A stretch of 64,000 nt of DNA, taken from Ceratothoa steindachneri. Taxonomy: Eukaryota > Arthropoda > Malacostraca > Isopoda > Cymothoidae. A program made the translations under genes and the position numbers. The stretch lies in contig OZ018321.1 in NCBI GenBank assembly GCA_963969495.1, positions 105,676,066 to 105,740,065 on the forward strand, read 5' to 3'. Shown here piece by piece: positions 216-48,223 of the stretch. Under the pieces are notes generated by a model. The model was not told the DNA's origin and made no database searches. It saw only the letters and a program-made list of their open reading frames with translations. Position 1 is the stretch's first letter, and every line of letters starts with the position of its first letter.

Positions 216-219
<4 letters not shown>

Positions 220-4387: not shown

Positions 4388-4398
4388 GAATGGAGGGG
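4388..4398 (+). promoter_or_regulatory. LTR-A polypurine tract
   Basis: The purine-rich GAATGGAGGGG lies directly against the TG that opens the 3' LTR, the expected place for plus-strand priming. Only one T interrupts it. Confidence 0.75.

Positions 4399-5699: not shown

Positions 5700-5702
<3 letters not shown>
4399..5702 (+). repeat. LTR-A 3' LTR
   Basis: Direct repeat of 216-1519 with the same ends. Its AATAAA is at 5519-5524 and its tandem array at 4888-5196. Differences from the 5' copy are few and mostly affect C-run lengths and single bases. Confidence 0.9.
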
Positions 5703-12044: not shown

Positions 12045-12827
12045 TTAATGCAACATCGCAAGAAAAGATGAGGAATTAAACCACATTCTCCGAAGACAAT
12101 TTAATTCAAAACAGTTTCGGTGTATCTCACACCCTTTTTCAACTGACACTGGGTAGAAAATATAAGAGAAGTGCATATAAGCATAACACAAGATCCCCTC
12201 TTTTTCCCCCAATTCCCTACATGTGGCTAATCTGGGAAAGGGGTTAGGCCTAAACATATTGAAGGGCTGACATTTAACTATTTTGTTCATATGCTTTCTT
12301 ATTACAGGATTAAAAGAAAATTGACCCTCAGATAGATTTAAATTAGGAACTGACGATATCAAGCTCGATTCTACGATTCTTCTCTTAACATAGTTAGCCG
12401 ATTTAAATACCATTTTACTTCCATTGAAATCGATCGTATGATTCTTGTCTCTAACATGGCAAAATATTCCACTGCTTTCGTTGCCCATTCTAATATCTCT
12501 TTTGTGTTCGTACAATCTCTTGTCTAGATTTCTCCCCGTTTCCCCTATATAAACTTTATGGCAATCGTTGCATGGTACTGTATATAATCCTATGTTAGGA
12601 TGTTCTTTGGGTTTCTTGGCCATCATCAATTGGTTTAAGGAATTATTATATTTAAAGGCTAGATTAATACCCGCTTTTCCAAATATGTCCTTTAAACTAT
12701 TTAATTTATTATTGAATGGCAACGTTATACATTTGTTGAAGTCGTTAGTGCGGGAAGGCTTATTACCATAGAATGTTTTCCTAGCTGCAAAATGGGCAGA
12801 CAATATGAACCAATCGGGGTAATACAA
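12045..12827 (-). pseudogene. Penelope GIY-YIG endonuclease part
   Basis: About 260 residues. Near residues 80-110 there is GLYTVPC, a CX2C pair, then VYIGETGR and an H-x-R-D segment, the GIY-YIG nuclease core with the cysteine insert found in Penelope elements. This nuclease makes the target nick for retrotransposition. The frame is open from the linker to a stop at 12045, but it is out of frame with the RT, so this copy cannot make the full polyprotein. Confidence 0.85.
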
Positions 12828-12865
12828 ATTAGAAAAAATGGTCCTGATAATGACAATTTCTTCAT

Positions 12866-13480
12866 CTAAATAGGAAGAATGACATATTTTGTATGCTCTA
12901 AGGAAAAGGTTAGAAATTGCCGAAATTTTTTAACAGTATTATCGTGAAACGAAAAATAATGTATATAGGCATTCGAGTGGGTTGGTTTCCTATACACGTC
13001 AAGTTTTAATTCATGGTGATCTTTATTAATGAGGACATCTAAAAAGGGTAATCTATTATCATATTCCCATTCATATTTAAATTTGATGCAGACATGCAAA
13101 TTATTCAAATTATTAAAAAAAGGATCAAAATCATGGCCATTAGGCCATACAGAAAATACATCGTCAATGTACCTTAACCATATAAAGTTAGGGAGAGAAA
13201 TTGTGGGAAGGAGTTCAGTCTCAAAATATTCCATGAAGAGACATGCCAATATCGGAGATAAACTATTTCCCATGCTAAGGCCAAATATTTGTCTATAAAA
13301 CTCATTATTTACTCGAAACACATTGTCACAGAGACATAATTCAACTAAATCGATAAATTTACTCGTAGAAATGGGAAGATCCAAATTAAGTCTCTAGACA
13401 TGATTTCCCGCAGAAGGCCCATGGTTTGGTCAACCGGAACTTTGGTAAACAAAGAGTTTACATCAAAGCTCACAAGTTTT
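12866..13480 (-). pseudogene. Penelope reverse transcriptase part
   Basis: Minus-strand sequence at 13385-13480 encodes LVSFDV-SLFTKVPVD, an early RT motif of this family. After a frame change, 13384-12866 continues with GLSMGNSLSPILA, the catalytic YIDD box (within RYIDDVF), and the LPFLDVLI and YRKPTHSN motifs. The catalytic residues are kept. The N-terminal part is missing. Confidence 0.85.
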
Positions 13481-21371: not shown

Positions 21372-21397
21372 TAAATTTCCCTGACCACTATCAAAAC

Positions 21398-22426
21398 CTA
21401 GTTTCCCGCCTCTAAAGACCTAATAACACTATCTAATTCCCGCCACAAAACCTCCACCCCATCTCGGCTCAGATGGAGTCCATCCATCGCATACAAACCC
21501 TTATTCCCATAAAACCTACTCCAAAAATCTACAATCACCAATCCTGACTCCTGGCTCAAACCTTTTACACATTCATTCAACCCCATTGCACGAGACAACC
21601 ATTCCATCCCCACATCCATTCTCGGAAGCACACCTGAAACAACGCCTTTTACTCTACTTTCACACATCCTTTCAATCAGCCTTTTATACCGCTGTCGTAA
21701 CTCACAAGTACCCACCTTCTTTACATCGTTTACTCCGACATGTGTAATCACAACTGCTTCCCTTTCAAACCCAGACACCAACCTATCATACCTCTCACAC
21801 ACATCATTTACACCAGCACCCGGCAGACAAACTCTCACTCCCTTACATTTACTTTCACTCAACTTCCTATCTAAATACCTAATCTGAGAGTCACCCATCA
21901 CAATCACCTCAGTTATTCTCCTATTCTCTCTAGGCCTAGTATTTCCCTCCCTCCTGCTCTCACTCACTCGACCTCCTATTCTACTTTCAGGCACGGCCAC
22001 ACCAGACAAATCTCTTTCAAATTCTTCCTCTCTCAGGGCATCAAATCTGTTAGTTAGCCAAACAGGTTCCATGTCCCTCTCATTCACACACCTAACCTGT
22101 CCTAACTTATCTATTCTGTTCACTTTCACCCACCACTCATCATCACTTACTTCACTTACTGCTTTCTCTCCAGTCCCTATTCTAGGCCTAACTTCCTCCC
22201 TCCTGGTCCCAATCTGACTCTTCAAACGTACACTTGCATTTCTTCTCACTTTACACACTAAATCGTTTAGTCTCAAGCATTCCGCACGTAATCGACTCAC
22301 CTCCTCAGTCAAAGCACATACACGGCATTCATACACTTTCACTCTCCTCTCTACACCACAGACATCGCACACTACATACACACTACTTTCAAAAGGCATA
22401 CTCTCTACATCCAAACAGTCAGCCAT
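21398..22426 (-). CDS. CR1-a ORF1: zinc-ribbon and SGNH/GDSL-type esterase protein
   Basis: I chose ATG 22426 because the next residues lead directly into CDVCG and the CRVC pair. The frame also stays open upstream to 22498, but that part is hydrophobic and lacks support. The protein is about 342 residues. Its N-terminus has two CX2C pairs (a zinc-binding module); then come a variable charged middle and a C-terminal SGNH-hydrolase-like domain with MGDSQIRYLDR (Ser nucleophile block), HVGVNDV (Asn block) and DGLHLS (Asp-His block). An esterase-bearing ORF1 is known for the CR1/L2 group; its exact role is unsettled. The frame is intact. Confidence 0.9.
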   Translation of the reverse strand: MADCLDVESMPFESSVYVVCDVCGVERRVKVYECRVCALTEEVSRLRAECLRLNDLVCKVRRNASVRLKSQIGTRREEVRPRIGTGEKAVSEVSDDEWWVKVNRIDKLGQVRCVNERDMEPVWLTNRFDALREEEFERDLSGVAVPESRIGGRVSESRREGNTRPRENRRITEVIVMGDSQIRYLDRKLSESKCKGVRVCLPGAGVNDVCERYDRLVSGFEREAVVITHVGVNDVKKVGTCELRQRYKRLIERMCESRVKGVVSGVLPRMDVGMEWLSRAMGLNECVKGLSQESGLVIVDFWSRFYGNKGLYAMDGLHLSRDGVEVLWRELDSVIRSLEAGN

Positions 22427-22703
22427 ACTTAAACAAGAACAATAATAGAAACAAAAACTTACAAACAACAAGAATTTGACCCGAATTTGTGCACGCAAGT
22501 TTAAAACCTGCTAATCAAGGTGGCCACCGAAGTAAACAAAAGTCACTTTCTCACCTAAACAAAATAACCACAATTCAACTTTGTTATATTAACCAAATAT
22601 ATGATCTAATAACTTAATATTTATGTTTATGTCACACACCAAAGTATTTCAAATAATCAAAATATTATGAGAGCTCTACGAAACACGTGCTACCTGTTCG
22701 AAG

Positions 22704-25800: not shown

Positions 25801-25833
25801 TCGTTAGACTCACAGGAGGCAACACCCCTGAAG

Positions 25834-26406
25834 ATGGTCGCTAGGCCATCTTCCGGGGTTCCTAAAGCTGTCCCCCAAAAGGAGGACAGCAACAAAGGAG
25901 CTTCGGCTCCTTCGCCCATGCCCCGAGGTGTGGCGAGTGGCTCGGAGACGGTGGTTCCTCGAAAAGAGGGCCCCCTGCCTCTGAAGCCGCAACGCCTGCC
26001 TAAGGTTTCGAGGCGGAGGGAGGAAAAGACTCGCATTTCTAGCCCAACCTCCCCCAATAAGTCCTCGAAGGCGACAGCGCCTTCAGCGCTTTGTCCGGCC
26101 AACAGCACCTTCAGCGCTTTGTCCAGCCAACAGCGCCCGGGGTTCTGCCCCCGGGAAGCGTACGGCCATTCCCGTGAGGGTCTTCAATTCGAGAAGGGCC
26201 CCCGCGTCTCCTCCGAGCTAGGCCTGGAGGGCATATTCCTTCAATGGAATTGCCGTGGACTCCGGGCCAACTGGGAGGAGCTGCGGAGGCTCGTCTCGTC
26301 CCGTTCCCCGTTATTTATCTTTTTGCAGGAGACCATGCTAGGCGCATGCCCGCGGGATGCGCGGTTTACACCCGGCATGATGTCTCCATTCTTCCTTTCT
26401 CTTTAG
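25834..26406 (+). pseudogene. I-a N-terminal linker and start of endonuclease
   Basis: A 190-codon open frame from Pro/Ser/Arg-rich sequence passes without a stop into GIFLQWNCRGL, the start of the APE-type endonuclease, and LQETML. The frame then breaks near 26400. The same continuity appears in copy c (52381-52785), so this linker may be the true N-terminus of ORF2 or the end of a fused ORF1. Confidence 0.7.
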
Positions 26407-27530
26407 ATACCTCCTTTCAGGCAGTGGCTGTGCAGCTGCACCTGGATAGGAGGTATACTATCATTTCTGCGTACATTCCACCTTCAGCTGACTTCGATGC
26501 GGGGGACTTCGCCGCGTCGTGGCCTGGTTGCCGAGGCCCTATCTCTTGCTTGGAGATCTGAACGGCAGGCATCCTCTCTGGGGAGATTACTCCATGAATC
26601 CCAGGGAAAAAGTCCTTGCCGATCTGATCGAAGAGCTTGAGATGGGTGTCCTAAACATGGATGAGTTTACGCATCACTGTCTGAGAACCGCTTCATTTTC
26701 TTGCCTTGACCTATCTTTGTGCTCTTCGGATGCACAGCCTGATTTTGATTGGGGGGTGGTCGATGACCTCCATGGTAGTGATCACTTTCCCATTCAAATA
26801 TCATTTTCAGGGCAACTGCCGCCTCGGTGGTGCCTGTCGCAGGCGCGGTGGCCTGCATTTCAGGAAATGACTGAATTCTCTATCTCAGTCAAGGAGTTTA
26901 GGTCGGTAGATGAGGCCGTTGAGTTCTTCTCCGGCAACCTCATCGCCGTTGGCCTGACTACTATTCCTAGGACGTCTGGCTGTTTTGCACGTCGACCACT
27001 CCCATGGTGGTCGGCCGAGTGTGAGACGGCCCTCAAACAGAAGCGTTATGCCTATAAGCGCCGCCCGAACGATTTCACTGTCGCTGAATTTCGTCGGGCT
27101 AAGGCTAGGTTCCGGTATATTTCGAAGCACGCCCGCCGCTGTTCTTAGCGGGCATACGTGTCTTCACAACAGGAACACCCCTTTAGCTGAGGTGTGGAAG
27201 CGAGTCAAAAGGATTCGGGGCAAGTTCTTGCAGGACCCCCCTCCCGTTCTCCAGGAGAATGGGACCGTAATCTCGGACCCCGCGTCCGTGGCGGAATCCT
27301 TAGCCACTGCTTTTTCCACATTCTCTAGCCGGGATGCTGCTCCACCAGCATTCAATGCACGTCGTGATTTCGCGGAAGGCCGCTGGCTGGACTTTACCTC
27401 CAGAGGTGGAGAACCCTTCAACGACAAGTTTACTGTGAGTGAGTTGCGTTCCGCTCTCGCTTCGTGCGTGGACACCGCCCATGGTCCGGACGATGTCCCG
27501 TACGCCATGCTTCGACACCTGGGTGAGTGA
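26407..27530 (+). pseudogene. I-a endonuclease and linker, frameshifted
   Basis: The parts at 26519-27148 show LLGDLNG, LDLSLCSS and GSDHFPIQI, the last catalytic block of the nuclease. A frame change near 27130 leads to 27164-27530 with the linker to the RT (WKRVKRIRGK) and AHGPDDVPYAML. The TGA at about 27528 precedes the fingers. Confidence 0.75.
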
Positions 27531-27533
27531 AGC

Positions 27534-28163
27534 ATGGCCTTTCTGTTAGATTTGTTCAACAGGATCTGGGTGGAAGGTCTTCTCCCAGACTCCTGGCGAA
27601 TCGCTACTGTGCTAGCCTTTCGCAAACCGGGGAGAGATCACTCTACTCCGGCCGGTTTCCGCCCAATCTCTCTAACCTCTTGCGTGTGCAAGTTGATGGA
27701 GAAATTGGTAAATGTTAGATTAGCCTTTTTCCTGGACAGCGGAGGCCATCTGTCTTCCGCACAGTGCGGCTTCCGCAAGTTCCACTCCACATCGGATGCT
27801 CTGCTCTGACTGGAAAATGCCGTCTGCGAGGCTTTTTCGATCTGGAGAAGGCCTATGATACCGCATGGCGATACGGTATCATGGAGACTCTCGACACGAT
27901 GGGGGCGAGGGGACGCCTCCCAATATTTATATCTGAATTTTTGCGAGATCCGTCGATTCCGCGTACGGTTGGGGGGAGCCCTCTCCGGCCCAAAGGAGCA
28001 GGAAGAGGTTGTCCCACAGGGAAGTGTCCTCAGTGTCACACTCTTTGCCCTGAGCCTCAACGGCATCACCTCGGTGCTGCTGGAAGATGTTCTCGCTACG
28101 CTCTACGTGGACGACCTATCGATCTCTTTTGGCGCAGCCCAGATGACAACTCTGGAGCTTTGA
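27534..28163 (+). pseudogene. I-a reverse transcriptase palm, frameshifted
   Basis: 27534-27809 carries GFRPISLTS and CGFRKFHST. After a frame change, 27855-28163 carries VPQGSVLSVTLFAL and the catalytic box YVDD intact. Two frame changes stop expression. Confidence 0.8.
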
Positions 28164-28175
28164 CTCCAACAGGCA

Positions 28176-29729
28176 TTGAACCGCGTCTCTTGCTATGCCG
28201 AAGCGCACAGGTTTCGGTTTTCTTTGGCCAAGACTAAGGTGGTGCACTTCTGCCGCCATCCACAACTTCACCCCGACCCAGATTTGTTTCTTAATGGGGT
28301 GCGCCTGGATGTGGTTGAGTCGCACCGTTTCCTTGGTCTTGTATTCGACCGACGCCTCACCTGGGAGGCTCATATTCGCAGCCTTAGGGTCTCTTGTACC
28401 TGCGCCATGGACATTCTCCGCTCCGTGACGTTCAGCGCTTGGGGCGCTGATAGGGCTACTGCCTTACTTTTTTATCGATCCTTTGTTCCCTCGAAGCTCG
28501 ACTACGGATGCGAGTTTTCTGCATCCGCAGCCGAGCATTCATTGCGGAAGGTGGATTCGATCCACCACACCGGCCTTCGCCTTGCGACCGGTGCCTTCCG
28601 CACTTCCCCCATTGACAGCCTGTTGGTCGATGCTGGGGAGATGCCACTCGCTCTGCGCCGCGTGCAGGGCATCACTCGTTTGTACACACGAGCGCGGCGC
28701 CTCCCTGAGTCGCCAACAGCTCTCACTGCATCCGCAGACGAGAAACGCCAGTCATACCTTAAACCCAAAGGGTTTAGGGCCAGGAAACTCCTTCGAGAGG
28801 TAGATATAGCTCTCGGGCTGGTGGCGCCCCTGGTTCTGCCCAGGACGCCACCCTGGAGGGTACCACATTTGGCTATTTGTCGCCCCGCCTCTGCGCCGGG
28901 AGTATTGCGTTCGACCTTTTTGGAGCACACATCGTGTCATGCTGGAACCGTGCCAGTGTATACGGATGGCTCCAAGTCCCAAGAGGGGGTCGGCTTCCAT
29001 GCTGTATCCCCTCTGTTTGAAGTCAGCGGGGCTCTACCAGGCGCTGCGTCTGTCTTCACGGCCGAGCTGGTGGCAATACACCACTCGGTACGGGAGATTA
29101 CGCAACGTGCCCTGTTCGGAGACCGGATTGTGATCTATAGCGACTCACAAAGCGCCCTGAGTGCTCTCGGGGCATTGGAATCTCCGCATCCCCTGGTTCG
29201 CGATATCCGTGACGCCACGGTTTTGGCGAGCCGGGCGGATGTTGAGATTATCTTCTGCTGGGTGTCTGGACATGTAGGAATTGCGGGGAATGAGTGCGCC
29301 AAAGAGTCCGCGAGGACTCTGCGCCCGGACCAGCGTTTCGCTCTTCCTCACACCGACTACATGGCAGGAATACGGGCAGCTCTTCGGACTGCTTGGCAAA
29401 GAAGATGGGAGACGGTCGAAGGGAACTTAAAGTTGTGTGCCATTGCGCCGCGACTGTTCCCATGGACCTATCCCCCAATGCCGCTGCGGCTTCAGGTTGC
29501 TTTCTGTCATATCCGAATCGGACACACTCGTGTGACGCATCGCTATTTGATGGAGCGCTCACCTGCACCCTATTGCAATGACTGCGTCGTCCCCCAGACT
29601 GTTCAGCACATTCTTGTCGAATGTCCCAGTCTGGTTGATCTTCGCACACGATACCTGTCCTGGGATGGGCGGGGGCGCTACCGCCTGTCCCTTGTACTCG
29701 GGACAGATTCGTGCACATTGACTTGTTGA
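28176..29729 (+). pseudogene. I-a RT thumb, RNase H and C-terminal zinc knuckle
   Basis: A 517-codon open stretch. After the RT connection (FLGLVFDRRLTW) comes an RNase H with VYTDGSKS (first Asp), FTAELVAI (Glu), IYSDSQSAL (Asp) and GHVGIAGNE, then a final CX2C-H-C knuckle (CNDC...HILVEC). It ends in TGA at 29727-29729. It is intact within itself but lacks its upstream frame. The RNase H helps remove template RNA during reverse transcription. Confidence 0.85.
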
Positions 29730-32012: not shown

Positions 32013-33097
32013 TTAGGAACCATCACAACCTTCCCTTCCCATAAACTCATCCAACCTACTCTTAAATACATTTAGATTTGGACTACCTACTACCCTCTGC
32101 GGCAATTTGTTCCAGAAGTCTACCACTCTATTGGTGAAAACATATTTTCTTAAATCCAACCTACACCCTTGCTTTTTAATTTTCAAGTGGTGACCTCTAG
32201 TCCGATTTCCATCATCTAACTCAAAAAACTTGCTAACATCCATTTTATCTATCCAGGAAAAATTTTTAAAGAGCTCAATTATATCCCCTCTCACACACCT
32301 CCTTTCGAACGAGAACATATTTAATACCCTCAGTCTATCTTCATATTCAAGGTGCCTCAGGGAAGGAATAATCTTTGTTGCCCTCCGTTGCACTGACTCA
32401 AGAAGGTTAATATCGTGTCTAAAATGTGGGGACCATGCCTGTATACAGTACTCTAGATGTGGCCTAACATAAGAGTTATAGAGTTTAAGAATAACCTCCT
32501 TACTTTTGTAACTGACATTTCTCTTAATAAAACCCAGCACTCTATTTGCCCTATTTCTGGCTTCAATACACTGCTTAGAAAACCTTAATGACTTATCTAT
32601 TACTACTCCTAGATCTTTCTCATCCTCTACTGAGCTCAGCCAATGCCCATCCATTTCATAGTTAAATTCTCTATTATCTTTTCCCATGTTAATAACTTTG
32701 CACTTATCAAGGTTGAAAGTCATTTGCCACTTATGTGCCCAGGATAACAATTTATTTAAGTCCCCCTGCACTTTAAAATTATCATCAATATCTTTAACTA
32801 CAGCTGCTAATTTGGTATCATCCACAAAAATTGACACTTTATTATTAACTGCCTCCCCAAGATCGTTTATATAGATGACAAATAATAATGGACCGAGAAC
32901 TGATCCCTGAGGAACCCCACTGATAACATCCCTCCACTCTGACTTTACACCATTTAGCACTACCCTTTGCTTCCTGTCTTTCAGCCACTCAGCTATCCAA
33001 TTTGAAGCACCCCCACATATCCCAATCATTTTTAATTTATGAACTAGTCTCCTGTGTGGTACCTTATCAAATGCTTTACTAAAATCTAAGTAAATTA
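32013..33097 (-). pseudogene. CR1-b ORF2, RT second half
   Basis: From the Tc1 junction the frame continues with YLDFSKAFDKVPH, GVPQGSVLGPLLFV, the catalytic box FVDD (within IFVDDTKL), then the thumb and C-terminal region to the stop at 32013. No stop interrupts this half. It confirms the reading of the broken CR1-a copy. Confidence 0.9.
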
Positions 33098-34507
33098 CAG
33101 TGGCGGCAACAAAAAAAGTGACATTGAATATTGGCAACAGAGATCGATACACAAAATCGCTTTCACAATTTTACTTGCCAACAAGCCAATAAAAAGGGGC
33201 TTGGCTTATGCCGTGAGTGGACGACTTTCCTGAGCTAAGACAACAGAACTGTGCTTTATTGCAACTCAAGTGTCTCGTTTGAGCTCGTACAGTGAGGTTT
33301 TAGTGTACAGCGCTCCAGCGTCCTGATTTCCTGCATTTGTGCCTACATTTGATGTGCTATAACTTCTGTGCAAGTGGATACAATGGGGCGGAAAAAGCTT
33401 TCTATTACAGAGAAAAGCTGTGCCTTTACCCTATTAGAGCGGTTAAAGTCTTTTATTGATGTAGCAGCAGATTTATGAACCTCAAGAAATATGATTTATC
33501 GCCTAAAACGGGCAGCTGAGTTATTGCTACCAGGTACCATACCAAAGAGGAAGGAGGGCACTGGTGCAGCTAGGAAGACATCTCCAAGGACTGATAATAT
33601 CCTAAGGCGTGAAGTGATGTCAGACCCTTCTGTAACCTCCGCTTCAATCAAGAAAAAACACCCAGACCTCCTCCAGAACATCGCCCTCAGGACCATCCCT
33701 CATCGCTTACAGACGGACTTAGGCCTACCGGCTCGCCGCGCTGCCAAGAAGCCACTTCTTACCAAGGCTATCAAGATGAAAAGGCTCAAATTTTGCAAGA
33801 CCTATAAACAATGGACAGCTGCCCATTGGAAGAAGGTCATGTTCAGTGATTAGAGCACCTTTAGGCTGGTCAGAGGAGAGTCAAAGATCGTGCGTCGTCC
33901 CAGCAATATGTCTCGGTATGACCCAAAATATACAGTGAAAACTGTGAAGCACCCTGATAGTGTGATGGTGTGGGGTGCCTTTAGTGGAAACAAGGTCAGA
34001 GGAGGTCTGTACTTCCTTCCCAAGAATGTAACCATGAGGGGGACTAACTATCTCGAAGTTTTGAAGCAGCAAATGCTGCCATTTTGGGAAATTCATCAGT
34101 GTGAATTTTTCATGCATGATGGTGCCCCTGCTCACAGGTCCCAGTTAGTAAAAAAGTTCTTCATTGATAATAATATTAGTGTTTTGGAGTGGCCTGGTAA
34201 TTCCCCGGACCTAAATCCTATTGAGAATACTTGGAATCTCATGAAAACCAAAGTTCAAGAGACAGCACTAGGCAGCATCAAGGACCTGATAGAATCACTG
34301 AAGAAGATCTGGATTACGATCGACAGCACCTACTTCGTAAACTTCCCTGAATTAATGCCCAATTGACTCAGGATGGTCACCAAGTGCAAGGGCAACATGA
34401 CCAGGTATTAACTTTCATGAAATATTCATAATAAAATATGTAAGTTGCATTTTTCTGTTTCATTTTTCCCGAATTGTCACATGTCACTTTTTTTGTTGCC
34501 ACCACTG
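33098..34507 (+). mobile_element. Tc1-type transposon nested in CR1-b
   Basis: A 1,410-bp element with inverted ends CAGTGGCGGCAACAAAAAAA and, read in reverse, CAGTGGTGGCAACAAAAAAA, continuing GTGACAT on both sides. It is flanked by the TA duplication (33096-33097 and 34508-34509). Both ends and the transposase frame are present in full length. Confidence 0.96.
33383..34411 (+). pseudogene. Tc1 transposase, full-length frame with three stops
   Basis: ATG 33383 opens one continuous frame of 342 codons to TAA 34409-34411. It is broken only by TGA at 33476-33478, TAG at 33851-33853 and TGA at 34364-34366. The N-terminal part is the paired helix-turn-helix DNA-binding region. The catalytic triad is visible: SD before the second stop, HDGAPAH, and NPIENTW, with 34 residues between the last Asp and Glu (DD34E). 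There are no frameshifts, so decay has only begun. Confidence 0.93.
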
Positions 34508-34509
34508 TA

Positions 34510-36326
34510 TATCTACATTCTCTCCCTTATCTACTTGATCTGTTACAAACTCCAGAAAGTCTAGTAAGTTAGTCAAACATGATCTACCTGATCTAAACCC
34601 ATGCTGAGCATCGCTGATTAACCCCTCCCTCTAGATGTTGGCAAATCCCTTTTTTAACTATTTTCTCAAGAATTTTACAGACTACAGGAGTTAGGCTAAC
34701 CGGTCTAAAGTTATTTGGATCCTCTTTACTACCCTTCTTGAAAATGGGGACTACATTTGCTCTCTTCCAATCATCGGGTATTTCTCCATATTCCAATGAC
34801 CTAGTATATAACTTGTCCAGAGCTATTGAGATACTTTCTACCCCTTCTTTAAGTATCCTAGAATGAATATTATCAGGGCCGGAGGCCTTGGTAGTATCTA
34901 AATCACCTATTAGTCCTTTTATCATCCTCTGATCCACACAAATGTTAGTAAACACCTCTTTTCCTGACCTATGAGTACTATACATAGGACTATTTAGTTT
35001 CTCTTTTGTAAATACTGATGCAAAATGACCATTTAGTACCTCAACTATTTCCTCATCAGTTTCTCTCACAAACCCTTCATATTTGATAGGTCCTATTTTA
35101 ACTCTGCCAGACTTGTTATTAGTTTTATAGTAACTAAAGAACTTTCTAGGATCTTTGTTGCTATCCTGAGCTAATTTAATTTCTGACACCCTTTTGTTCT
35201 TCTTTATAATCTTATTTAACTCATTCCTAGCCATTCTATAATCACTTAAATTTTGAATATTATTTTGTACCTGTAATTTTTTATATGCCCTTTTCTTCTC
35301 TGAAATTTTTCTAGCTATCTCCTGATTCCACCATAATGGTTTCCTACTTTTGTTCCTAATGGTCTTCATTGGGATACATTGTTCTTGGACTACATTTATT
35401 ATATGCTTGAAAGTATCCCACATCCCATAAGCATTTTTACCTCTGAATTCTATATCCCAGTCTACCAAATTTAGCAAGCTTCGAAGTTTTACATAATCTC
35501 CCTTATGAAAATTTGGAACTTTTACAGCATTCTCGGTTATTTTACCCTTCTCAATTCCCAAGTTAAAACGAACTATCTGATGGTCACTATTTCCCAATGC
35601 TTCCCCAACAGTCAATTCTTGAACTAAATGATCACTGTTAGAAAGTACTAAATCTAATATATTGTCCCCCCTCGTTGGCTCATTAACAAATTGATTCAAA
35701 AAATTATCCTCAAAGCATTCTATGAACCTGCCACTTGTTCTATCCCTACCTATCATATTTTTCCAGTCCACAGAGTTTAAGTTGAAGTCCCCAATAATAA
35801 CTGCATCTGTTTCACATCCCTTACTTATTTCCCTTATCATTAGTTCATCTATATCATCAGTCTGCCCAGGTGGCCTGTAAAAAGCTCCCAAATGCACCAT
35901 TCTATTTTTACTGAACCTAATATCTATCCAAAGTGACTCAACTCCATCCTGCTTTATTGAAGTATTTAAACTTGAAACAATGTTGTTTTTTATATAGATA
36001 ATTATTCCTCCACCAATCCTACCTGTCCTTTGACTAATGTACATATTATAGCCCTGTAAATCAAATTCACTTATAGTGTCACTAAATTCTATTTCATTAA
36101 CCCATGATTCAGTAACGCATAATATATCTATATCCTCATTGCTAATATAACTAAATAGCTCATCCTTCTTGTTTCTAAGACTACGAGCATTTGTATAGAA
36201 ACAATTTAACCCCCCTATCCCTGAAGCACCTCTTGAAACTTGAATGACCTCACCTCTATCGCCTTGGAACCTATTTCTGTTATCTGCCAAGTCCATTCTA
36301 CTTTCAGTACTATAATGTCCTCTCAT
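34510..36326 (-). pseudogene. CR1-b ORF2, endonuclease and first half of RT
   Basis: This part is open from ATG 36326 for 577 codons. The endonuclease (NCFYTNARSLRNK, ESWVNE, YRPPGQ, IIGDFNLNSVDW, GNSDHQIV) and the early RT (KPLWWN, TTKASGPDNIHSR, VVPIFKKG, NFRPVSLT) are complete. A one-base shift near 34630 throws the last residues out of frame before QHGFRSGRS-like sequence, shortly before the Tc1 insertion at 34507. Confidence 0.9.
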
Positions 36327-36349
36327 AATTCCCTGACCACTATTAGTAT

Positions 36350-37504
36350 CTAGTTTCCCGCCCGCAAAGACCTAATAACACGATCATACTCCTCCCACAA
36401 CACATCTACCCCCCTCCTACTCAAATGCAGTCCATCCATCGCATACATTTCTTTCATTCCAACAAACCTATCCCACACATCCACAAACATGACACCTTCC
36501 ATCTCACACATCCTCCTCACATAATCATTCAGCCCAATTGCACGAGACATCCATTCTACCCCAACATCCATTCTTGGAAGCACACCTGTCACAACACCTT
36601 TCATTCTACTTTCTTTCACCTTTTCAATCAACCTCTTGTAGCTCTCACGTAACTCACATGCACCCACTTTCTTCACATCATTCACTCCTACATGTGTAAT
36701 CACAACCGCATCCCTTGCACAGCCAGACACCAGTTCCTCATACCTATCAGACAGATCTCTCACTCCAGCACCCGGCAAACACACCCTCAAACCATTCAAT
36801 CTACTTGCATTCAACTTCCTATCTAAATATCTAACTCGCGAATCACCCATCACAAGCACTTCAGTCAGACTCCTATTCCTAACCCCCACAGACCTAACTC
36901 CATCCCCACTCCTATTCTCATTCAAACTACCAGTCACTCTACCTCCACCCCCACCCCCATCAGTCATATCACTTCCAGTTACTTCCTCTCTTAGGGCACT
37001 GAATCTATTAGTCAAGCTAATAGGTTCTGTGTCCCTCTGACTCACACACCTATTCTCCCCCTGGCTAACCACCTCAACAGAGGCAACCCTATTCTCACAA
37101 AGAACAGGAGAAGCCTCCCTAGCTTCATGTTTCCTAACCACTCTCCACTGTCCCCCATCCTCACTAGGCCTATTTCTAACTAATCTAAGGGGGCTAACTT
37201 CACTAGAACTATCATATCCTACCTCCTCCACCGGCCCTCTACCTTCACCTGAAACATCTAACTGGCCTACCTCACCACCTAACCTATTCCCAAATCTAGG
37301 CCTAACACTAAGTTCCCTCCTGAGCTCAGCAACTAACCCCTCCAGCCTACATATCCTGTCTAAATCCTGCCTTCTCATCCCCTCTAAATCTACAATGCAT
37401 TCACGCAGCCCACATACAACACATGTATACCCCTCACCTAATACACCACAACCAATGCATACATTCCGACACTCATGCTCACTTTCATCCCCAAACTCCA
37501 TCAC
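36350..37504 (-). CDS. CR1-b ORF1: zinc-ribbon and SGNH/GDSL-type esterase protein
   Basis: An intact 384-residue frame from ATG 37504. The N-terminal CIGCG and CVVCG pairs form a zinc-binding module, followed by a short coiled coil, a low-complexity Gly/Ser-rich middle, and a C-terminal esterase-like domain: MGDSRVRYLDRKL (Ser block), HVGVNDV (Asn block), DGLHLSRRGV (Asp and His). It is strongly similar to CR1-a ORF1 at the C-terminal half and divergent in the middle, so the esterase is the constrained part. Confidence 0.92.
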   Translation of the reverse strand: MMEFGDESEHECRNVCIGCGVLGEGYTCVVCGLRECIVDLEGMRRQDLDRICRLEGLVAELRRELSVRPRFGNRLGGEVGQLDVSGEGRGPVEEVGYDSSSEVSPLRLVRNRPSEDGGQWRVVRKHEAREASPVLCENRVASVEVVSQGENRCVSQRDTEPISLTNRFSALREEVTGSDMTDGGGGGGRVTGSLNENRSGDGVRSVGVRNRSLTEVLVMGDSRVRYLDRKLNASRLNGLRVCLPGAGVRDLSDRYEELVSGCARDAVVITHVGVNDVKKVGACELRESYKRLIEKVKESRMKGVVTGVLPRMDVGVEWMSRAIGLNDYVRRMCEMEGVMFVDVWDRFVGMKEMYAMDGLHLSRRGVDVLWEEYDRVIRSLRAGN

Positions 37505-39354: not shown

Positions 39355-39358
39355 ACAT

Positions 39359-40357
39359 TGTAGCGGTGGGATCGCGAGTCCCTAGCCAAAAGTTCCCGCC
39401 GCCCTGACAAGGTCCGCTCGGTGGTTCAAGAAGAGGGTATTGAGGAGAGAGAGTATTTTCTAAATTTAATTTAGAAACCGTAATTATAGCAAAATAATCA
39501 ACCCCAAATATTATATAACTCTCAACCTAAACCAAAATACATTACATATAAATATATAAATACAGTTGGCCTTACAATACTCTGGCCAACCACCAGACGT
39601 ATATATTTACCAAAAGGCCTTACATAAGATCTTGGCCACGCAAACGAATAATAAAACCAAGATATTGCGAAAGACGGGTGCACCCTTATCTAACTAATGG
39701 AGTGAGATGTGTTGGAGAAAGTGGGAGATGGATCACTTTCTGCGGGATTCTGAGGGGTCCAGGACTCGGTAAAGCCGAGGATTTTGGGTAGCTGGGATGC
39801 TTGTTGGTCCCAACTGCTGGGTCACAGTCGGTTGGACACTGCTTCAACCACTCCCTGGAGACTGGAAGGTGCTGGCCAAGGTCCACACCTTAGAAAATTG
39901 CCCCAAAAGGTAGGCGCACCTGCGAGGGTCAGGATTGGCTTCAGCCGTCTCCTAAAGCCAGATGTCGACGACAATCGGTACCACGGAACTGGAAAAGAGA
40001 AGGCACATTCAGTCACCTATTCACTGCCACACTCAAACATCTTTACTCCTAACTCATTCAACCATATCCACTCTCACACAATCTTCACTCACCTATCTTC
40101 CATCTAGGCGGCTCTTCCTTCCTCAGTCACAAACTTTACTTCCAAACTTTTACCTACACTTTCTAAAGAAAAATATTTGCTGAAAGAATCCGCCTAAAAA
40201 GAAAACAGGAGATGAATGGGGGAGCACAATAGAGATCCATCAAGTCTCCCCACACAAAGTAAAGACGGTGATCACACGATCCACACCCACACACATTCTG
40301 CAAAAGAAGAAAGAGATTAGACATAGGGGAGGGGAGGCGGACAACCAAACTACTACA
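39359..40357 (-). repeat. LTR-C 3' LTR
   Basis: Direct repeat of 47220-48219, starting at TGTAGCGG on the plus strand and ending CTACTACA. The two differ at roughly ten positions seen by eye (for example T against C in AGCGGTGGG and AGCGGCGGG). Confidence 0.95.
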
Positions 40358-40368
40358 TCCCTCCCAGC
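40358..40368 (-). promoter_or_regulatory. LTR-C polypurine tract
   Basis: In minus orientation the sequence GCTGGGAGGGA directly abuts the 3' LTR. GGTGA repeats lie further upstream. Confidence 0.75.
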
Positions 40369-40419
40369 TAAATTCACCTCACCTCACCTCACCATGTCTC
40401 AATCCCCATCTTCATTCAT

Positions 40420-40716
40420 TCACAATGCTTTCAACATCACCCAGTCATAGTCTTTCACTCTGCCTCTCCTCCTAGTCACAGGTCCATCAACTGTCTCTGT
40501 CATCTGTCGTAATGTCTCCTCATGTCTGTCCATGGCCCCTTCTCTATGTACTTCATCCACACACACATCCGACATTCCCTGACCAATCCCACTCAAATCC
40601 TCAACTAACCTCTCTACTACATCCATCAAACCTTCCCATTCTTTCATAGCATTTATCGACTCTTGTTCCAATTTCGCACTTATCCCATTTACACTCTCTA
40701 GCATAGACTCACTCAT
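40420..40716 (-). CDS. LTR-C 3' short open frame
   Basis: ATG 40716 overlaps the end of the pol frame by 8 nt (pol TGA at 40709-40711) and encodes 98 residues. It is Glu-rich and probably helical. Its last 25 residues, including VTRRRGRVKDYDW, resemble the basic Pol tail of other gypsy elements. It may be the true C-terminus of Pol reached by a shift, or a separate small protein. No membrane segment, so it is not an envelope protein. Confidence 0.6.
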   Translation of the reverse strand: MSESMLESVNGISAKLEQESINAMKEWEGLMDVVERLVEDLSGIGQGMSDVCVDEVHREGAMDRHEETLRQMTETVDGPVTRRRGRVKDYDWVMLKAL

Positions 40717-41830
40717 TCAACGGAAACTTACAAATACTGTACGTTCTATCATATACTCCATCTTGATCTTTCACAAACCCAGAAAACTCTCTCAAATCAC
40801 TCTCACCAAACTGTTCCATCCATTCATCCTTTCTCAACCGTTTACTCTTACGCTTCCCCCTTCGATGTTCAACTAACACTAACTGCTTCCCCTCTAAAGC
40901 ACTAGCTATATCATCCACCATTTCACAGTCTTCCATTCTTTCAGACAGATATTCATTCACTGGATGTTGCACCAAATATTCAGGAGGTTCACGCCACTTT
41001 CGCAACTGACCTTGATGCGCTCTACGTTCATCCAAACTTCCATCCTCTCTTTCACGAACTATCACATAACTTACCCCATTTGACCAAACCTTTCTTACTA
41101 CAAACGGACCTTCAAATTTCTCTTTCAACTTATCCACATTCAGTCTACCTTTTGTCTCAATCTCCTTTAGTACTTTATCACCCACAGAAAAACTCTCAAA
41201 CCTTTCATTCCCTTTTCTCCACAACTCACGATCCTTCTCACTAAGTCCCATATGTGGCCTAATCATTCGTTCAAAGTTCATCAAATACTTACATGGTGAC
41301 ATTCCAATCGCCTTATGCACTGTCATGTTATACGCCCAAAGCTCTCTTCCCAAACATTCATCCCATTCTTTCCCATCTTTCACCATCAATCGTAACATCT
41401 CACTCAAAGTTCTTATCGTCCTTTCAGCCAAACCATTCGCACTAGGCATATACAGCGTTGTTCGCACATGATCTATTCCCCATTCACTCAACATCTCCTC
41501 AAAAGCACGTCCTACAAACTCAGGTCCATTGTCACTCAACATTCGCACAGGCTTACACATGCACATGGGCAACATTCTCTCACTCACTTCTCTAGCAACA
41601 GTCAATGAAGATTTATTTGTCACAGGTGCAGCATACGCAAATTTGCTCTTATGATCCACCATCACAATCATCCCTACATACCCTCTTGCAGTCCTCGGAA
41701 AAGACACGCAATCGATCGCTACCATTTCAAAGGGTTCATTCACACTCAACTTTAATACAGGTGGGGCGACATACACTCTCTGATACTTTCTCTTCTGGCA
41801 TACTTCCACGTAGTCGCTACATCCACGCAA
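40709..41830 (-). pseudogene. LTR-C integrase
   Basis: About 373 residues in one open frame after a frame change at its N-terminus. The catalytic triad is present: AIDCVSF (Asp), LSDNGPEF (Asp), and AERTIRTL (Glu), with 35 residues between the last two. A C-terminal region follows with GPFVVRK and YVIV, like the GPF/Y module of gypsy integrases. The H2C2 zinc part precedes it in the other frame (VHDRFGHMGKNKLW near 41890). Integrase inserts the cDNA into host DNA. Confidence 0.9.
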
Positions 41831-43065
41831 ATCTTTCTAAAAAAGGGACTAAATATACATCCTTTCATACATTCCCACAATTTATTCTTACCCATATGTC
41901 CAAACCTATCATGCACAATCTTCACCATTCCAATCGTGCCACACACGGAAAACACCGGAATATATACATCCTCATCATCTATACATTGCACAAAATACAC
42001 TAAACCCTTGCACACTACAAACTTTCCAGCAAACCTTCTAAACTCTCTTAATATGCAACTCCATTCATTCACAGGAACACTGGTCATCACACTATCTTTC
42101 AATTCACGCACCATCGGACATGACTCTTGCATGCTCTCTATATCTTCAGCAGTCAACAGCTCTTCACTCAAATCGACACCTGCCACTCCTACAAATCCAG
42201 TTGAGCCTACAAGCTCACTCTGCAACTTCCCAACTGTTACACCATCTTTCACTAAACATTCATTACATACATCCACAGAAATCCTATTCTTACGCAGAAA
42301 ATCAATCCCAAACAGAAAACAATAAGGTAACTCATTCTCGCTTAGCACAACAAATTCATGCAATATATCATTCAACTTCCCCATGCTTACAGACAAACTC
42401 ACTTCCTCCCATGCCATAATACGTCCACTTCCGAGTCCACTTATCGAAACTGTCACACCTTTTCTAGAAACATTCCAACTCATATTATCAACATCACACA
42501 CAACTTTTGCATTCACCAAGGAAATTTGCGCACCTGTGTCAATCATTCCACAATAGCTCTTCCCATTCATAGTCAAGGTAACTTGCACTCTCTCTTCAAG
42601 TCCATGTTCACACATTATATTCAACACTTCGGTCTGTTCCACAAACACTTCTGCAGCATCCAAACCTTCATCTTCACTAACAGGAACAATTCCTTCGCAA
42701 ATGTAGTCAATCTCTCTTCTTACATAATTCTTTTTCTCAATCAGCCAATTATAATGCACACCACTCAAACATTGCAGATGCAACTCACATCCATTCACTC
42801 GGTCTACACCTTTACCACGATACATCACTGGCTTCTCCACACCATAATACACATATACTCTCACACCAAACAGCTTACTCACTATCGCTAACACTTCCTG
42901 AAACATCATCACTCCTGGCATACACATACTTCTCAAGTCTTTTCTTAACCTACTTGAATTTTCCATTCCCAATTGCTCTGGTCTCTTACACGCTTCTTCC
43001 ATAACCACCTTTCGTAATGCATTCACACTTTCTGGCACCTTTTCAAGCAATCCATCTTTCACCAA
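41752..43065 (-). pseudogene. LTR-C OTU-like domain, second retropepsin domain and integrase zinc part
   Basis: One open frame of 437 codons. Residues 1-110 complete an OTU-like fold that begins in the upstream frame at GDSMF (43112-43090): helices ending LRKVV, then MCMPGVMMFQEVLAIVSKLF, VRVYVYYG, and the terminal HYN motif (His codon 42754-42756). The position of the usual catalytic Cys is Ser (43098-43100), so deubiquitinase activity is doubtful. Residues 165-270 form a second aspartic-protease-like domain: MIDTGAQISLV (Asp codon 42538-42540) and later FLFGIDFL. The end carries the integrase H2C2 histidines. Domain assignment is by motif only. Confidence 0.75.
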
Positions 43066-43652
43066 GTCTCGTAAACCATAAACACACTTTCGAACATAGA
43101 ATCACCTCGACCATTACATTTTCTTCCAACAACTACACCTGCTGGCAAATACTCAGGATTTATGCTTACAGTCTCGCTCTCATTCAAACTACATGGCAAA
43201 CGTGACATCAAATCAGCAATCACATTCCTTTCACCTGGCAAATACTCAACCACAAAATCAAAATCCTCTATCGTCCTTGCAAGCCTACTATCAACTAACC
43301 TCATACGCTGCAAATACACTAGTGGCTGGTGATCTGTTCTCACTACAAACCGTACTCCATACAGAAATGGTCGTAACGACTTGAGACAGAATCTTAACGC
43401 AGCCAGCTCTCTTTCAATCGTTGAATATGCACGCTCTGCCACACTAAATGCCTTAGAAACATACGCAATTACTCGCTTTCTTTTAACTCCATTCACAACT
43501 TGATCTTGCATCAAACATCCACCCATCGAATGACCACTTGCATCCGTATACACTTCAAGCATTCCTGCATTTGTTCCATATGCTGGATATGCAAGTTCCA
43601 CATCTTTTGCAACTTCCGTTTTTAACTTTTCAAACGCTGCATTCATAGTCAT
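43059..43652 (-). pseudogene. LTR-C RNase H and start of OTU-like domain
   Basis: About 197 residues. VYTDASGHSMGG (first catalytic Asp), AERAYSTIERELAAL (Glu), RTDHQPL (Asp) and ERNVIADLMSR are the standard gypsy RNase H blocks. The frame then reads CNGRGDSMFESV, the opening motif of an OTU domain, before a frame change near 43075 moves to the next frame. Confidence 0.88.
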
Positions 43653-44609
43653 TCCACTTAATCACAGCACTCTTCTTTTTCCCAGTCCATACACTCAACG
43701 GTTTCATTACAAATGAACAATCTTTCATAAACTTTCTTCCAAACTCAACTAAACCAAGAAATCCACGCAACTCTCTGACTGCGGTAGGCTTAGGGAAATT
43801 CCTAACCTTTCCCACGAACTTCTCCGATTTACGCAATCCAACTGCACTCACCTTATGTCCTAAAAACTCAACTTCACTAGCAAACCATACACATTTAGAC
43901 AACTTCACTTTGACACCAACCTCTTCCAACTTTCTTAAAACATCATTCACCAAGGTCATATGTTCTCACTCATCACCAAAATATCATCCAAAAACACTCA
44001 TACATTCTTACACGGAAAACCACTCAACTCTACATTCATAGCACGCTGAAAAGCAGCTGGGGCATTCGCCAACCCAAAGCTCAGGTTTCTAAAATGATAA
44101 TGGCGCTTTGAGGTAGAGAACGCTGTAATAGGCCTACTCTCTTCAGCCACAGGCATCTGGTAGTATCTACGTACCAGATCCATCTTAGAAAACACTTTCA
44201 TTCCATACATACTGTACACACATTCAGACACAACACTCATAGGCAACTTGTCTTTCAACATTCGTTCATTCACTCTTCTATAGTCAATGCACAGTAGCAA
44301 ACGTCCATCTGGCTTTCGTACAGGTACAATCGGACTATTCCAGGCACTCACACTCGGTTCAATCACGCCAATTCTCTCTAATTCCTCACACTGTTCCTCA
44401 ATCTCTTGAGCCACAGGGGCAGGAAAATGACGAGGCCTTTGATAAATTGGCATATCATCGCTCAAAATTATTTTGAACTCAGGCAAGTGAGCATTGCCAA
44501 AGTCCTCATCCCCTTGACTCAAAGCACCTCTCCTATTCCACAACATCCTGTAAACTTTTTGCTTCTCACATTCACTCAACTTTTCTTCGAATTTCACTTG
44601 CTCAATCAA
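43630..44609 (-). pseudogene. LTR-C reverse transcriptase
   Basis: 44609-43998 carries the N-terminal RT blocks: QRPRHFP, ERIGVIEPS, SAWNSPIVPVRKPDGR, CIDYRRVNE, FSKMDL and FGLANAPAAFQRAM. A TGA at 43995-43997 stands four codons before the catalytic FLDD box (Asp codons 43983-43988). A one-base change near 43960 then leads to 43959-43630 with VGVKVKLSKC, FLGHKVS and LRGFLGLV. It joins the protease frame through a single TAA at 44613-44615. Confidence 0.92.
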
Positions 44610-44612
44610 ATC

Positions 44613-45452
44613 TTAATACTTCCAAACATTCGACGTTACACTCACGGAAAACACATTTGCGTTCACCACATGCATATCATTCTCCATATTCACCACTGTA
44701 TTTAACACACCCAATTTATCTCCCACTTGCACTCCTCTAAGACTCTTCCTTCGCAGATCAGGCCAAACTTGTATGCAGACACGCGGATCTTTTATATCAA
44801 TTATACCATCAAACACATGCACCACTCGCCTTAATCGACGGTTCACAGCACTACCATCCAAGACATAAATATTCCCATCATTCTCATTTATCTCGACATC
44901 CGAATTCCATCCAATCCTTACACTCAATGTTTCATTCTGCTTGACAGGCACACTCTCAATCGCATATACCTCCAGACCTTTCATGATGTTCACTCTCACA
45001 CTTCCATCTGGATTCACATACCATTGACATTTCATACTTCCATTCTTCTTACATTCAATCATCTCTAAATCCGGGTGAATCACAATACCATTCGCTTTCA
45101 AAAACTTATAACCTAATAGCATGTCATACTTCTTGTTTGCACCTTCTACAACACAAAATTCATCTTCATTCATCCGGACACCGGCAATCAAAACACTCTC
45201 TCTAAACCTTGCAACAATCGGCACATCCTGTTCACCTAATCCAGTCAAATGATATCCACGATCCTTAACTTCACTTACTTTCATTCCTACAAATGCTTCA
45301 TAGTACACCACATTCACCTTACATCCTGTATCAATCAATGCACTAACTTCTCGTTCTCCACACTTAATTTTAACACACATACACCTATTCACTCTCTGAC
45401 CCCAATTCACTCCACGATTTGACAATCCTTCTCTCACATTCATCACTTGCAC
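44613..45452 (-). pseudogene. LTR-C first protease domain
   Basis: About 279 residues. SALIDTGCKVNVV (Asp codon 45330-45332) is the retropepsin active site; LLGYKFL near residue 115 is the second conserved hydrophobic block. About 130 residues of unknown function follow before the RT. The gag frame ends at 45481 and this frame differs from it, so a gag-pro frameshift is possible, programmed or accidental. The frame is closed by a TAA, after which the RT continues in the same frame. Confidence 0.85.
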
Positions 45453-45480
45453 TCTAGAGAATTCCCCAGAAGGAACCCTC

Positions 45481-47106
45481 TCATTCCTTAGTTTCCCTGA
45501 GTCGTATCCTCTCGATTACTTGCATCATTCCCATGCATCTTTCTCCGGTCCTACACAACCTTGTTGCATGACCTACCATTCCGCATTTACCACAGGTAGC
45601 TCTTGGACTGGCACACATCCTGGCATAATGCCCTATCTGCCCACAATTACCACACACTCCAGGTCCACTCATATTTACTCGACCACCTTCCCTGCAATCT
45701 CAAACCAAGTGGCCCATTCTTCCACATCCATAACATGCTCTTTCCCTCGCACGACTACAATCTTTTATCATGTGCCCCATTTGTCCACAGCCAAAGCAAC
45801 TTCCTTGTGACCAGCGACAGTCAACCCTCATATGTCCAACTTTCTTGCACCTCAGACACCTAGGCTCATTTACTCTAGATCTACTGTCATTCCTACCATT
45901 TGTGCGACCACTATTCCGACCATTCTGAACCCTACTCCACCCATTCCGACTCTCACTCCTACTTTTACTCCCTCTCGGTTGGCGGCCAACATACACACTC
46001 TGTTGTTCATTCTGCCCGCTGTAATAATTTTCCAAAAATCTAGACATCACTTCGATCGGGTTCTCTGTCAATGCGTCCCGATATGATAGTTGAGTTGCGC
46101 ACAGTGTGAATCGAGGCCTCCTCCCTTCCATAATCCTCAAATTCACGGTCCTCTAACATCTCCAGTACATCCTTCCATGGCAATCTTTCACCAGCCCATT
46201 TCATCTTCTCTTTCCTCTTATACGTCACATACTCACTCACTTCATTCGGAACCGTATTTAAAAACTTCTTCATCAGCTCCTTATTCCCATTTATTCCGTC
46301 ATCTCCAAATCTCATTCGTGCCAAGGACTCTAAGCGATGCGCATAAGAATTCACATCCTCATTCTTCCCCATTCTCGCTTCCTCAAACCCATTTGTTTTC
46401 TTATACTTCACACTTGTCTTCATCCTCTTACAGTGCTCTATTATTCTCTCTTTCATAACATCCCACTTAGGCTCACCCACGCTCATAATCGTCCAGTAAA
46501 AATCCTTCCCCCCAGAAACTCGCACAACTCTTTCACCCAAAACCTATTATTCTCTCCAAATTTTTCCTTGCAATAATTTTCATACTCTTTCAAAAACACT
46601 TTCACATCTTTTGCTCCTTCCACTCTAAACTTACTTAACTTTGGCACTTCTCTGATCAGTATACTCCGATGAACCTCAGCATCACTTTCACTATCACTCA
46701 TTTCTCTCCCACTTTCACTCATGCCTTCATTCGAGCTGAAATATAAGGAGTCAATACTAGCCAGTCGGGTCCTTTCCTGTCGGTCTGGGCATCTAGTCTT
46801 TGGGGTCTTCTTTTTTCGATGCCTAGTCATTTGCAGGGGTTCCTTTATGCCTGTCAATCCCTTTTTATCAGTCATGTCAATTCCAAGTGGAGTCGAGGCC
46901 ACCCCCCCACCAATTGCACCTGATTCTCCCATTTTCTCATTCAGCATTCGCATCAATCTTTCCTCCATTCGCACCTCACTGTCTTTAATCCTCTCTTCCA
47001 TTCTCACTTCCATCTCCCTCATTTTCCTTTTCAAACTATCATTCTCTTCTCTCAAATGCGCATTTTCTCTGTCTTTCTGCCGCACTAACTCATTTAGTCT
47101 TCTCAT
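45481..47106 (-). pseudogene. LTR-C gag with five zinc knuckles
   Basis: ATG 47106 is the first AUG in the leader-proximal frame; open frame extends upstream to 47184 without ATG. The N-terminal 60 residues are a charged coiled coil. A capsid-like middle with FRVEGAKDVKVFLKEYENY (near 46640-46580) is split by frame changes near 46500 and 46090. The C-terminal part has five CX2CX4HX4C knuckles between 45835 and 45560. A TGA at 45700-45702 falls inside the third. Gag packages the RNA into particles. Confidence 0.85.
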
Positions 47107-47195
47107 CTCCAACTCCGTGGTCCCAATCTGTTCCTCCTCCTTTAGGGACAAAAGACACAGGCTCTCACTCCTCTCCTTCCTCAAACCACCGGGCA

Positions 47196-47213
47196 GTCCC
47201 TATTCGGGTGCCA
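47196..47213 (-). promoter_or_regulatory. LTR-C primer-binding site
   Basis: In minus orientation the 18-mer TGGCACCCGAATAGGGAC lies 6 nt inside the 5' LTR. Its complement ends in CCA, as the 3' end of a tRNA does. It differs at two positions from the well-known lysine-tRNA site of lentiviruses, so a lysine-type tRNA is the likely primer. Confidence 0.75.
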
Positions 47214-47219
47214 AAAATA

Positions 47220-48219
47220 TGTAGCGGCGGGATCGCGAGTCCCTAGCCAAAAGTTCCCGCCGCCCTGACAAGGTCCGCTCGGTGGTTCAAGAAGAGGGTA
47301 TTGAGGAGAGAGAGTATTATCTAAATTTAATTTAGAAACCGTAATTATAGCAAAATAATCAACCCCAAATATTATATAACCCTCAACCTAAACCAAAATA
47401 CATTACATATAAATATATAAATACAGTTGGCCTTACAATACTCTGGCCAACCACCAGACGTATATATTTACCAAAAGGCCTTACATAAGATCTTGGCCAC
47501 GCAAACGAATAATAAAACCAAGATATTGCGAAAGACGGGTGCACCCTTATCTAACTAATGGAGTGAGACGTGTTGGAGAAAGTGGGAGATGGATCACTTT
47601 CTGCGGGATTCTGAGGGGTCCAGGACTCGGCAAAGCCGAGGATTTTGGGTAGCTGGGACGCTTGTTGGTCCCAACTGCTGGGTCACAGTCGGTTGGACAC
47701 TGCTTCAACCACTCCCTGGAGACTGGAAGGTGCTGGCCAAGGTCCACACCTTAGAAAATTGCCCCAAAAGGTAGGCGCACCTGCGAGGGTCAGGATTGGC
47801 TTCAGCCGTCTCCTAAAGCCAGATGTCGACGACAATCGGTACCACGGAACTGGAAAAGGGAAGGCACATTCAGTCACCTATTCACTGCCACACTCAAACA
47901 TCTTTACTCCTAACTCATTCAACCATATCCACTCTCACACAATCTTCACTCACCTATCTTCCGTCTAGGCGGCTCTTCCTTCCTCAGTCACAAACTTTAC
48001 TTCCAAACTTTTACCTACACTTTCTAAAGAAAAAATATTTGCTGAAAGAATCCGCCTAAAAAGAAAACAGGAGATGAATGGGGGAGCACAATAGAGATCC
48101 ATCGAGTCCCCCTACACAAAGTAAAGACGGTGATCACACGATCCACACCCACACACATTCTGCAAAAGAAGAAAGAGATTAGACATAGGGGAGGGGAGGC
48201 GGACAACCAAACTACTACA
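47220..48219 (-). repeat. LTR-C 5' LTR
   Basis: Transcription would begin in this copy and run leftward. Its limits are defined by identity with 39359-40357 and by the ACAT duplication outside. Confidence 0.95.
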
Positions 48220-48223
48220 ACAT

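Follow-up and report, generated by a model that had tools for sequence, protein, structure and literature searches.

What are an OTU-like domain and a second retropepsin doing between the RNase H and the integrase of a gypsy-type retrotransposon? The question is raised by LTR-C, a long terminal repeat (LTR) element on the minus strand at 39359-48219 of a 64,000-nucleotide stretch of the isopod Ceratothoa steindachneri (assembly GCA_963969495.1, contig OZ018321.1, positions 105,676,066 to 105,740,065), hereafter the window, whose own numbering is used throughout. We read LTR-C as a broken copy of a Ty3/gypsy-type lineage whose pol runs PR1-reverse transcriptase (RT)-RNase H-OTU*-PR2-integrase, PR1 and PR2 being the first and second retropepsins and OTU* an OTU-fold domain in which the nucleophilic Cys is usually replaced by Ser, the upstream Asp by Gly, and the His-x-Asn pair is kept. 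The full reading, in which OTU* would be a non-cutting holder of ubiquitin or a ubiquitin-like protein and PR2 an active dimeric protease, has in our judgement an even chance of being right.

In LTR-C, RNase H lies at 43266-43559 (open reading frame (ORF) 43661-43062; PF17917, 92.4 bits), and the OTU-like domain begins at the end of the same frame. Its N-terminal piece (43062-43151, located by family alignment) contains GRGDSMF, with the Ser codon at 43098-43100. A frame change falls inside the domain, and the C-terminal piece (42721-43101), carrying PGV and HLQCLSGVHYN with the His codon at 42754-42756, is read in the next frame; it was delimited by family alignment, column counts and the family fold. 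A C-x-H motif (42604-42612, family alignment) precedes PR2 (42289-42582), a DTGA retropepsin recognised by Pfam and PDB profile matches, and the integrase core follows at 41450-41740 (ORF 41836-40712; PF00665, 46.8 bits). PR1 (45096-45371, ORF 45515-44616), a DTGC retropepsin identified with PF13975 and by alignment, stands before the RT. The initial annotation had described GDSMF, PGV and HYN followed by a second DTG block between RNase H and integrase; this order is present, split over two frames, and the Asp codons of PR1 (45330-45332) and PR2 (42538-42540) are exactly where it had placed them.

The module is not peculiar to this copy. The first productive search for relatives returned two close proteins (50% and 45% identity, spanning 94% of the 449-residue ORF that holds PR2) and two distant ones (25%), and all or part of the OTU-PR2 module was found in 24 other proteins (P0001-P0024), each from a separate contig; alignment of 23 of them to the window ORF gave identities of 21-50%. 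Scans of viral contigs and of prokaryote genome contigs gave no relative, and nothing matched when the 449-residue ORF was searched as a single protein under a length filter, probably because full-length pols do not pass that filter and the fragments that do are too distant to be reached with one sequence. Both proteases were recognised by Pfam in one ORF in 6 of the 24 relatives (P0001, P0003, P0005, P0008, P0012 and P0016), the others being fragments or starting too far downstream to include both. The H2C2 region of the integrase (PF17921) was over the cut-off in 18, under it in two (P0001 and P0019) and without a match in four (P0020, P0022, P0023 and P0024). By Pfam coordinates, in 16 family pols the end of RNase H and H2C2 lie a median of 466 residues apart (range 444-544), P0011 being left out with a value of 478 that lies within this range, versus 143-189 residues in seven ordinary gypsy pols. 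Those seven, out of eight ordinary pols (P0030 was outside the domain scan), showed neither an OTU match nor a second protease stretch, as had been expected of ordinary gypsy elements, with the qualification that three of them gave no protease match of any kind at E ≤ 0.01. In a tree of RT-RNase H sequences, a single branch with full support divides 21 family rows, the RNase H piece of the window among them, from nine ordinary rows, which are unnamed and include one very long-branched sequence. The OTU-PR2 elements are one lineage within a sample drawn through the module: all 24 relatives were found through their OTU-PR2 part, and pols of the same clade devoid of it could not appear. The view that LTR-C itself had gained the module has to be replaced, as the module is a trait of the lineage present in 24 related proteins.

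PR2 has the D-T/S-G motif, the flap G-x-G and the hydrophobic-hydrophobic-Gly (hhG) motif of retropepsins. Cut out alone, it exceeds the cut-offs of three Pfam families (PF13975, 30.7 vs 28.2 bits; PF13650, 24.6 vs 24.3 bits; PF00077, 24.1 vs 20.7 bits) and stays under that of a fourth (PF09668, 21.3 vs 26 bits); inside the whole 449-residue ORF it is just under the cut-off for all four. A five-row PR2 profile retrieved DDI1-type and other retropepsins from PDB (best 1.3e-7), the DDI1-type chains coming first. These PDB matches were rejected as evidence of a DDI1-like origin, since DDI1 is likewise the top match of the P0003 PR1 and of an ordinary gypsy protease. The PR1 of LTR-C, searched as a piece, is under the cut-off for every family (PF13975, 22.9 bits vs 28.2) and aligns with the six PR1 sequences of relatives. 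PR2 is further marked by a set of Cys and His residues (window 42202-42630, also P0001-P0023), to which the upstream C-x-H belongs. A Cys four residues ahead of the catalytic Asp occurs in all 23 relatives with PR2 and in 0/7 PR1 sequences. C-x(1-3)-H, its Cys 21-26 residues ahead of the Asp, is present in 22/23 (P0012 has no His), a count made with the pattern C-x(1-2)-H plus the longer cases P0015, P0016 and P0018 read from the sequence, and a Cys four residues ahead of the hhG Gly is found in 23/23 covering rows, window included. P0024, which has no PR2, is excluded from these counts, and the truncated P0022 also from the last. Our guess is that the set might form a zinc or other metal site in a retropepsin.

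PR2 could be a duplicate of PR1 that arose inside the lineage, and not a retropepsin captured from a cell or from some other retroelement, an origin that we regard as possible while leaning against it. Both are retropepsins that align over their length (122 profile columns, hhalign 99.4%; window PR1 against window PR2, BLASTP 25% identity, E 7e-4), and a topology joining PR1 and PR2 against ordinary proteases was not rejected by the approximately unbiased test (p-AU 0.445). The protease tree, however, separates PR1 (support 90/91) from PR2 (59/92), with the six ordinary proteases on the PR2 side of a root drawn at the midpoint.

The two OTU pieces of the window retrieved nothing from the databases: the larger (42622-43101) gave no Pfam, PHROG or PDB sequence match at E ≤ 10 and the N-terminal one no Pfam match, so the OTU assignment rests on the relatives. 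A profile of 22 family OTU domains, whose rows are 27-58% identical to the first, matched OTUD3 at 1.6e-6; it returned six OTU sequences and one unrelated mutase (E 0.31), only OTUD3 being below 0.001. With five rows the first match was an AMP-activated kinase (0.0067), OTUD3 coming next (0.0073) and further kinases lower, and these kinase matches vanished with 22 rows. Of the 22 domains scanned as cut-out pieces, 4 matched PF02338 at E ≤ 1, the strongest at 3.8e-5, and among the 24 whole relatives only P0024 did so (0.0016, under the cut-off). The three-dimensional structure predicted for the family, modelled on P0024, has the OTU fold. Profile searches and structure prediction had both been proposed with the initial annotation. 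The searches bore it out for PR2, over three Pfam cut-offs, and left the OTU pieces of the window without a match, while the prediction delivered the fold, on a relative. An OTU-type module with a second retropepsin between RNase H and integrase stands on this combined evidence, PR2 through Pfam and the OTU part through the family profile and fold.

The catalytic His and the Asn at His+2 are kept in 25/25 rows, window included. At the nucleophile position, following GGG[DN], Ser is found in 20/22 rows, Cys in one (P0011) and Thr in one (P0012), and the Asp expected three residues before it is Gly in 22/22. The window, P0019 and P0021 rows are excluded from these Ser and GGG counts; LTR-C itself has Arg at -3 (GRGDSMF). 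Of the features of OTU cysteine proteases, the family therefore retains the His and the Asn/Asp at His+2 and lacks the catalytic Cys and the Asp at -3. The initial annotation was right about the Ser, which is the usual state of the family, and had missed the loss of the Asp. Decay of one copy was rejected as the source of the Ser, which the relatives share. In 23/25 rows another Cys (HLQC) stands five residues ahead of the catalytic His, which it probably faces across a hairpin, as judged from the strands. The yeast enzyme Otu2 has the triad Cys178-His300-Asn302; crystallisation was done with its C178S variant, which is inactive but associates stably with ubiquitinated 40S (PMC10175282). By analogy, the natural family looks like this trapping variant and has lost the upstream Asp besides.

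We favour the following scheme. PR1 probably handles the usual gag-pol processing. OTU* most likely no longer cuts ubiquitin and would instead hold ubiquitin or a ubiquitin-like protein, attached to a host factor or to proteins of the element itself. PR2, in which the retropepsin residues are complete, most likely works as a dimeric protease and would free or trim the OTU*-integrase end of the polyprotein; it might be guided by the ligand of OTU* or process something that OTU* brings near. Three observations weigh against this scheme: the columns of Ser, His and Asn rank among the best conserved of the OTU domain, which a mere binder need not keep; both exceptions at the Ser position are nucleophiles too; and the fold model is that of P0024, a relative itself without PR2, and not that of the LTR-C copy.

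The main rival takes up this conservation: OTU* would be an active Ser-His-Asn hydrolase (protease, isopeptidase or esterase) that cuts the polyprotein or a ubiquitin-like conjugate, which we think rather unlikely. The invariant His and Asn, and a Ser replaced only by Cys or Thr, favour it in a domain otherwise so divergent, and as just two changes in total account for the Cys and Thr forms among rows with Ser on the RT-RNase H tree, a thiol and a hydroxyl seem able to replace each other at this position. The loss of the Cys and of the canonical Asp(-3), Gly in every counted row, disfavours it, and we know of no natural serine OTU enzyme. The same Cys-to-Ser change inactivates Otu2 (PMC10175282). 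An extended form, which we hold to be quite unlikely, would couple a natural Ser-His-Asn enzyme to PR2, giving two chemically different hydrolases beside PR1, with OTU* acting on ubiquitin-like tags or on the polyprotein and the Cys/His set of PR2 perhaps binding zinc.

A distinctly improbable alternative is that OTU* serves as a mere structural spacer or platform, for instance for integrase assembly, the kept His and Asn being structural. Its place upstream of PR2 and integrase across the family would suit such a role, and gypsy integrases already have N-terminal extensions. The best conserved residues of the domain nevertheless cluster at the former active site (GGG, the PG loop, His and Asn, Ser following closely); an Arg and a Pro away from it are invariant too. 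That the module is a chance fusion or an assembly artefact in a single copy, the case that the initial annotation had itself seen as fatal and to which the broken frames of LTR-C lend some colour, is refuted and practically negligible, given that relatives from separate contigs carry all or part of the module.

These findings document a lineage of retrotransposons whose pol has six parts, two of them retropepsins. Its conserved Cys-to-Ser swap, with the His-Asn pair still in place, raises a sharply defined question, a binding domain or new chemistry, and the marker GGG[DN]S...H[YF]N followed by DTGA would let repeat annotators recognise elements whose OTU domain escapes Pfam (the PF02338 cut-off was reached in 0/24 relatives).

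The remainder of LTR-C, also on the minus strand, was delimited as follows. The 5' LTR (47220-48219, 1000 bp) and the 3' LTR (39359-40357, 999 bp), found as a repeat pair and with blastn, start with TG, end with CA and are identical at 988/1000 positions; they are flanked by the unstranded target-site duplication ACAT (48220-48223, other copy 39355-39358). Directly inside the 5' LTR, a primer-binding-site-like TGGCACCCGAATAGGGAC (47196-47213), perhaps resembling tRNA-Lys, was read from the sequence, and a polypurine stretch read in the same way (40358-40365) adjoins the 3' LTR. Between the LTRs, ORFs in shifting frames encode gag, zinc knuckles, PR1, a two-piece RT, RNase H, the 449-residue ORF and integrase. 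From the ORF list, gag consists of two ORFs in different frames (46043-47199); the Pfam scan, which covered the piece 46043-46543, gave no match there. The nucleocapsid piece with CCHC zinc knuckles lies at 45703-46152 (PF00098, 38.5 bits, three stretches), and the RT pieces lie at 44001-44612 (PF00078, 39.2 bits) and 43633-43965 (22.2 bits, under the cut-off). The H2C2 zinc-binding region of the integrase (41833-41925) is weak in LTR-C (PF17921, 12.9 bits). Downstream of the integrase core, the same ORF has a GPF motif (KFEGPFVV, read from the translation), and the C-terminal tail of pol (40420-40716) resembles, by eye and unscored, the tail of P0002, with which the ORF was compared. The ORF list shows the copy to be broken in several frames: the LTRs are only 1.2% apart, yet the coding part (40420-47199) has many frame changes, which reflect either assembly indel errors or the copying of an already broken element. 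No tRNA (ARAGORN) and no Rfam family at gathering score was found in the whole window, and a sigma-70 scan of the LTR scored at shuffle level and is uninformative here.

Other mobile elements share the window, their domains and names being assigned by eye. A second LTR element on the plus strand (216-5702, repeats 216-1519 and 4399-5702) has an ORF (2038-3987) with CCHC, DTGC and RNase H. Two copies of one long interspersed nuclear element (LINE) on the minus strand (18409-22510 and 32016-37504) have an esterase-like first ORF and are about 75-81% identical in repeat pairs; the latter contains a Tc1/mariner-like transposase piece (33854-34363). There are also a LINE with RNase H and several inverted partial copies of it (25801-29726 and 49-64 kb) and a minus-strand Penelope-like RT that includes a GIY-YIG-like part (12048-13393). 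The make-up of these other elements suggests an animal host, perhaps an arthropod.

With Ty3/gypsy elements (Metaviridae), LTR-C shares the PR-RT-RNase H-integrase order, a CCHC gag, TG..CA LTRs with a 4-bp duplication (ACAT, inside the expected range of 4-6 bp) and a GPF motif after the integrase core; its lineage differs in about 300 extra residues ahead of the integrase, the OTU-fold domain and the second retropepsin. In the portions consulted of the open-licence literature, a scope that leaves Repbase and GyDB aside, neither an OTU domain nor a second retropepsin was found in an LTR pol, while the OTU domains of Ginger and Helitron elements were; the OTU-PR2 lineage may already be listed in Repbase or GyDB. 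Troyka, likewise an LTR element of animals whose domains follow the gypsy order, differs in its CG..CG ends, its 3-bp duplications and its lack of a GPF/Y motif (PMC12440569), and this assignment was rejected on the TG..CA ends and the ACAT duplication of LTR-C. The dUTPase-carrying retroelements of rotifers and retroviruses likewise have an additional enzyme-derived domain within pol, but of a different fold and, in rotifers, between PR and RT (PMC5408684). Compared with OTUD3 and yeast Otu2 (4bou, 7pl7), the family has Ser for Cys and Gly for Asp at -3. Ginger1 elements combine a gypsy-like integrase with an OTU domain in one protein; they are cut-and-paste DNA transposons bounded by terminal inverted repeats, and their protein ends in an OTU or Ulp1 domain, the OTU lying after the integrase (PMC2836005), whereas LTR-C is a full LTR element with the OTU domain before the integrase and an adjoining second protease. 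LTR-C was rejected as a Ginger1 element on its direct LTRs and RT, against the inverted repeats and the lack of an RT in Ginger1. Helitrons and Helentrons with an OTU-like protease are likewise mobile elements that acquired an OTU domain, although as rolling-circle DNA transposons their replication is unrelated (PMC6431247 and PMC2836005). The lineage of LTR-C would tie LTR elements to the ubiquitin system, as Ginger elements and Helentrons are.
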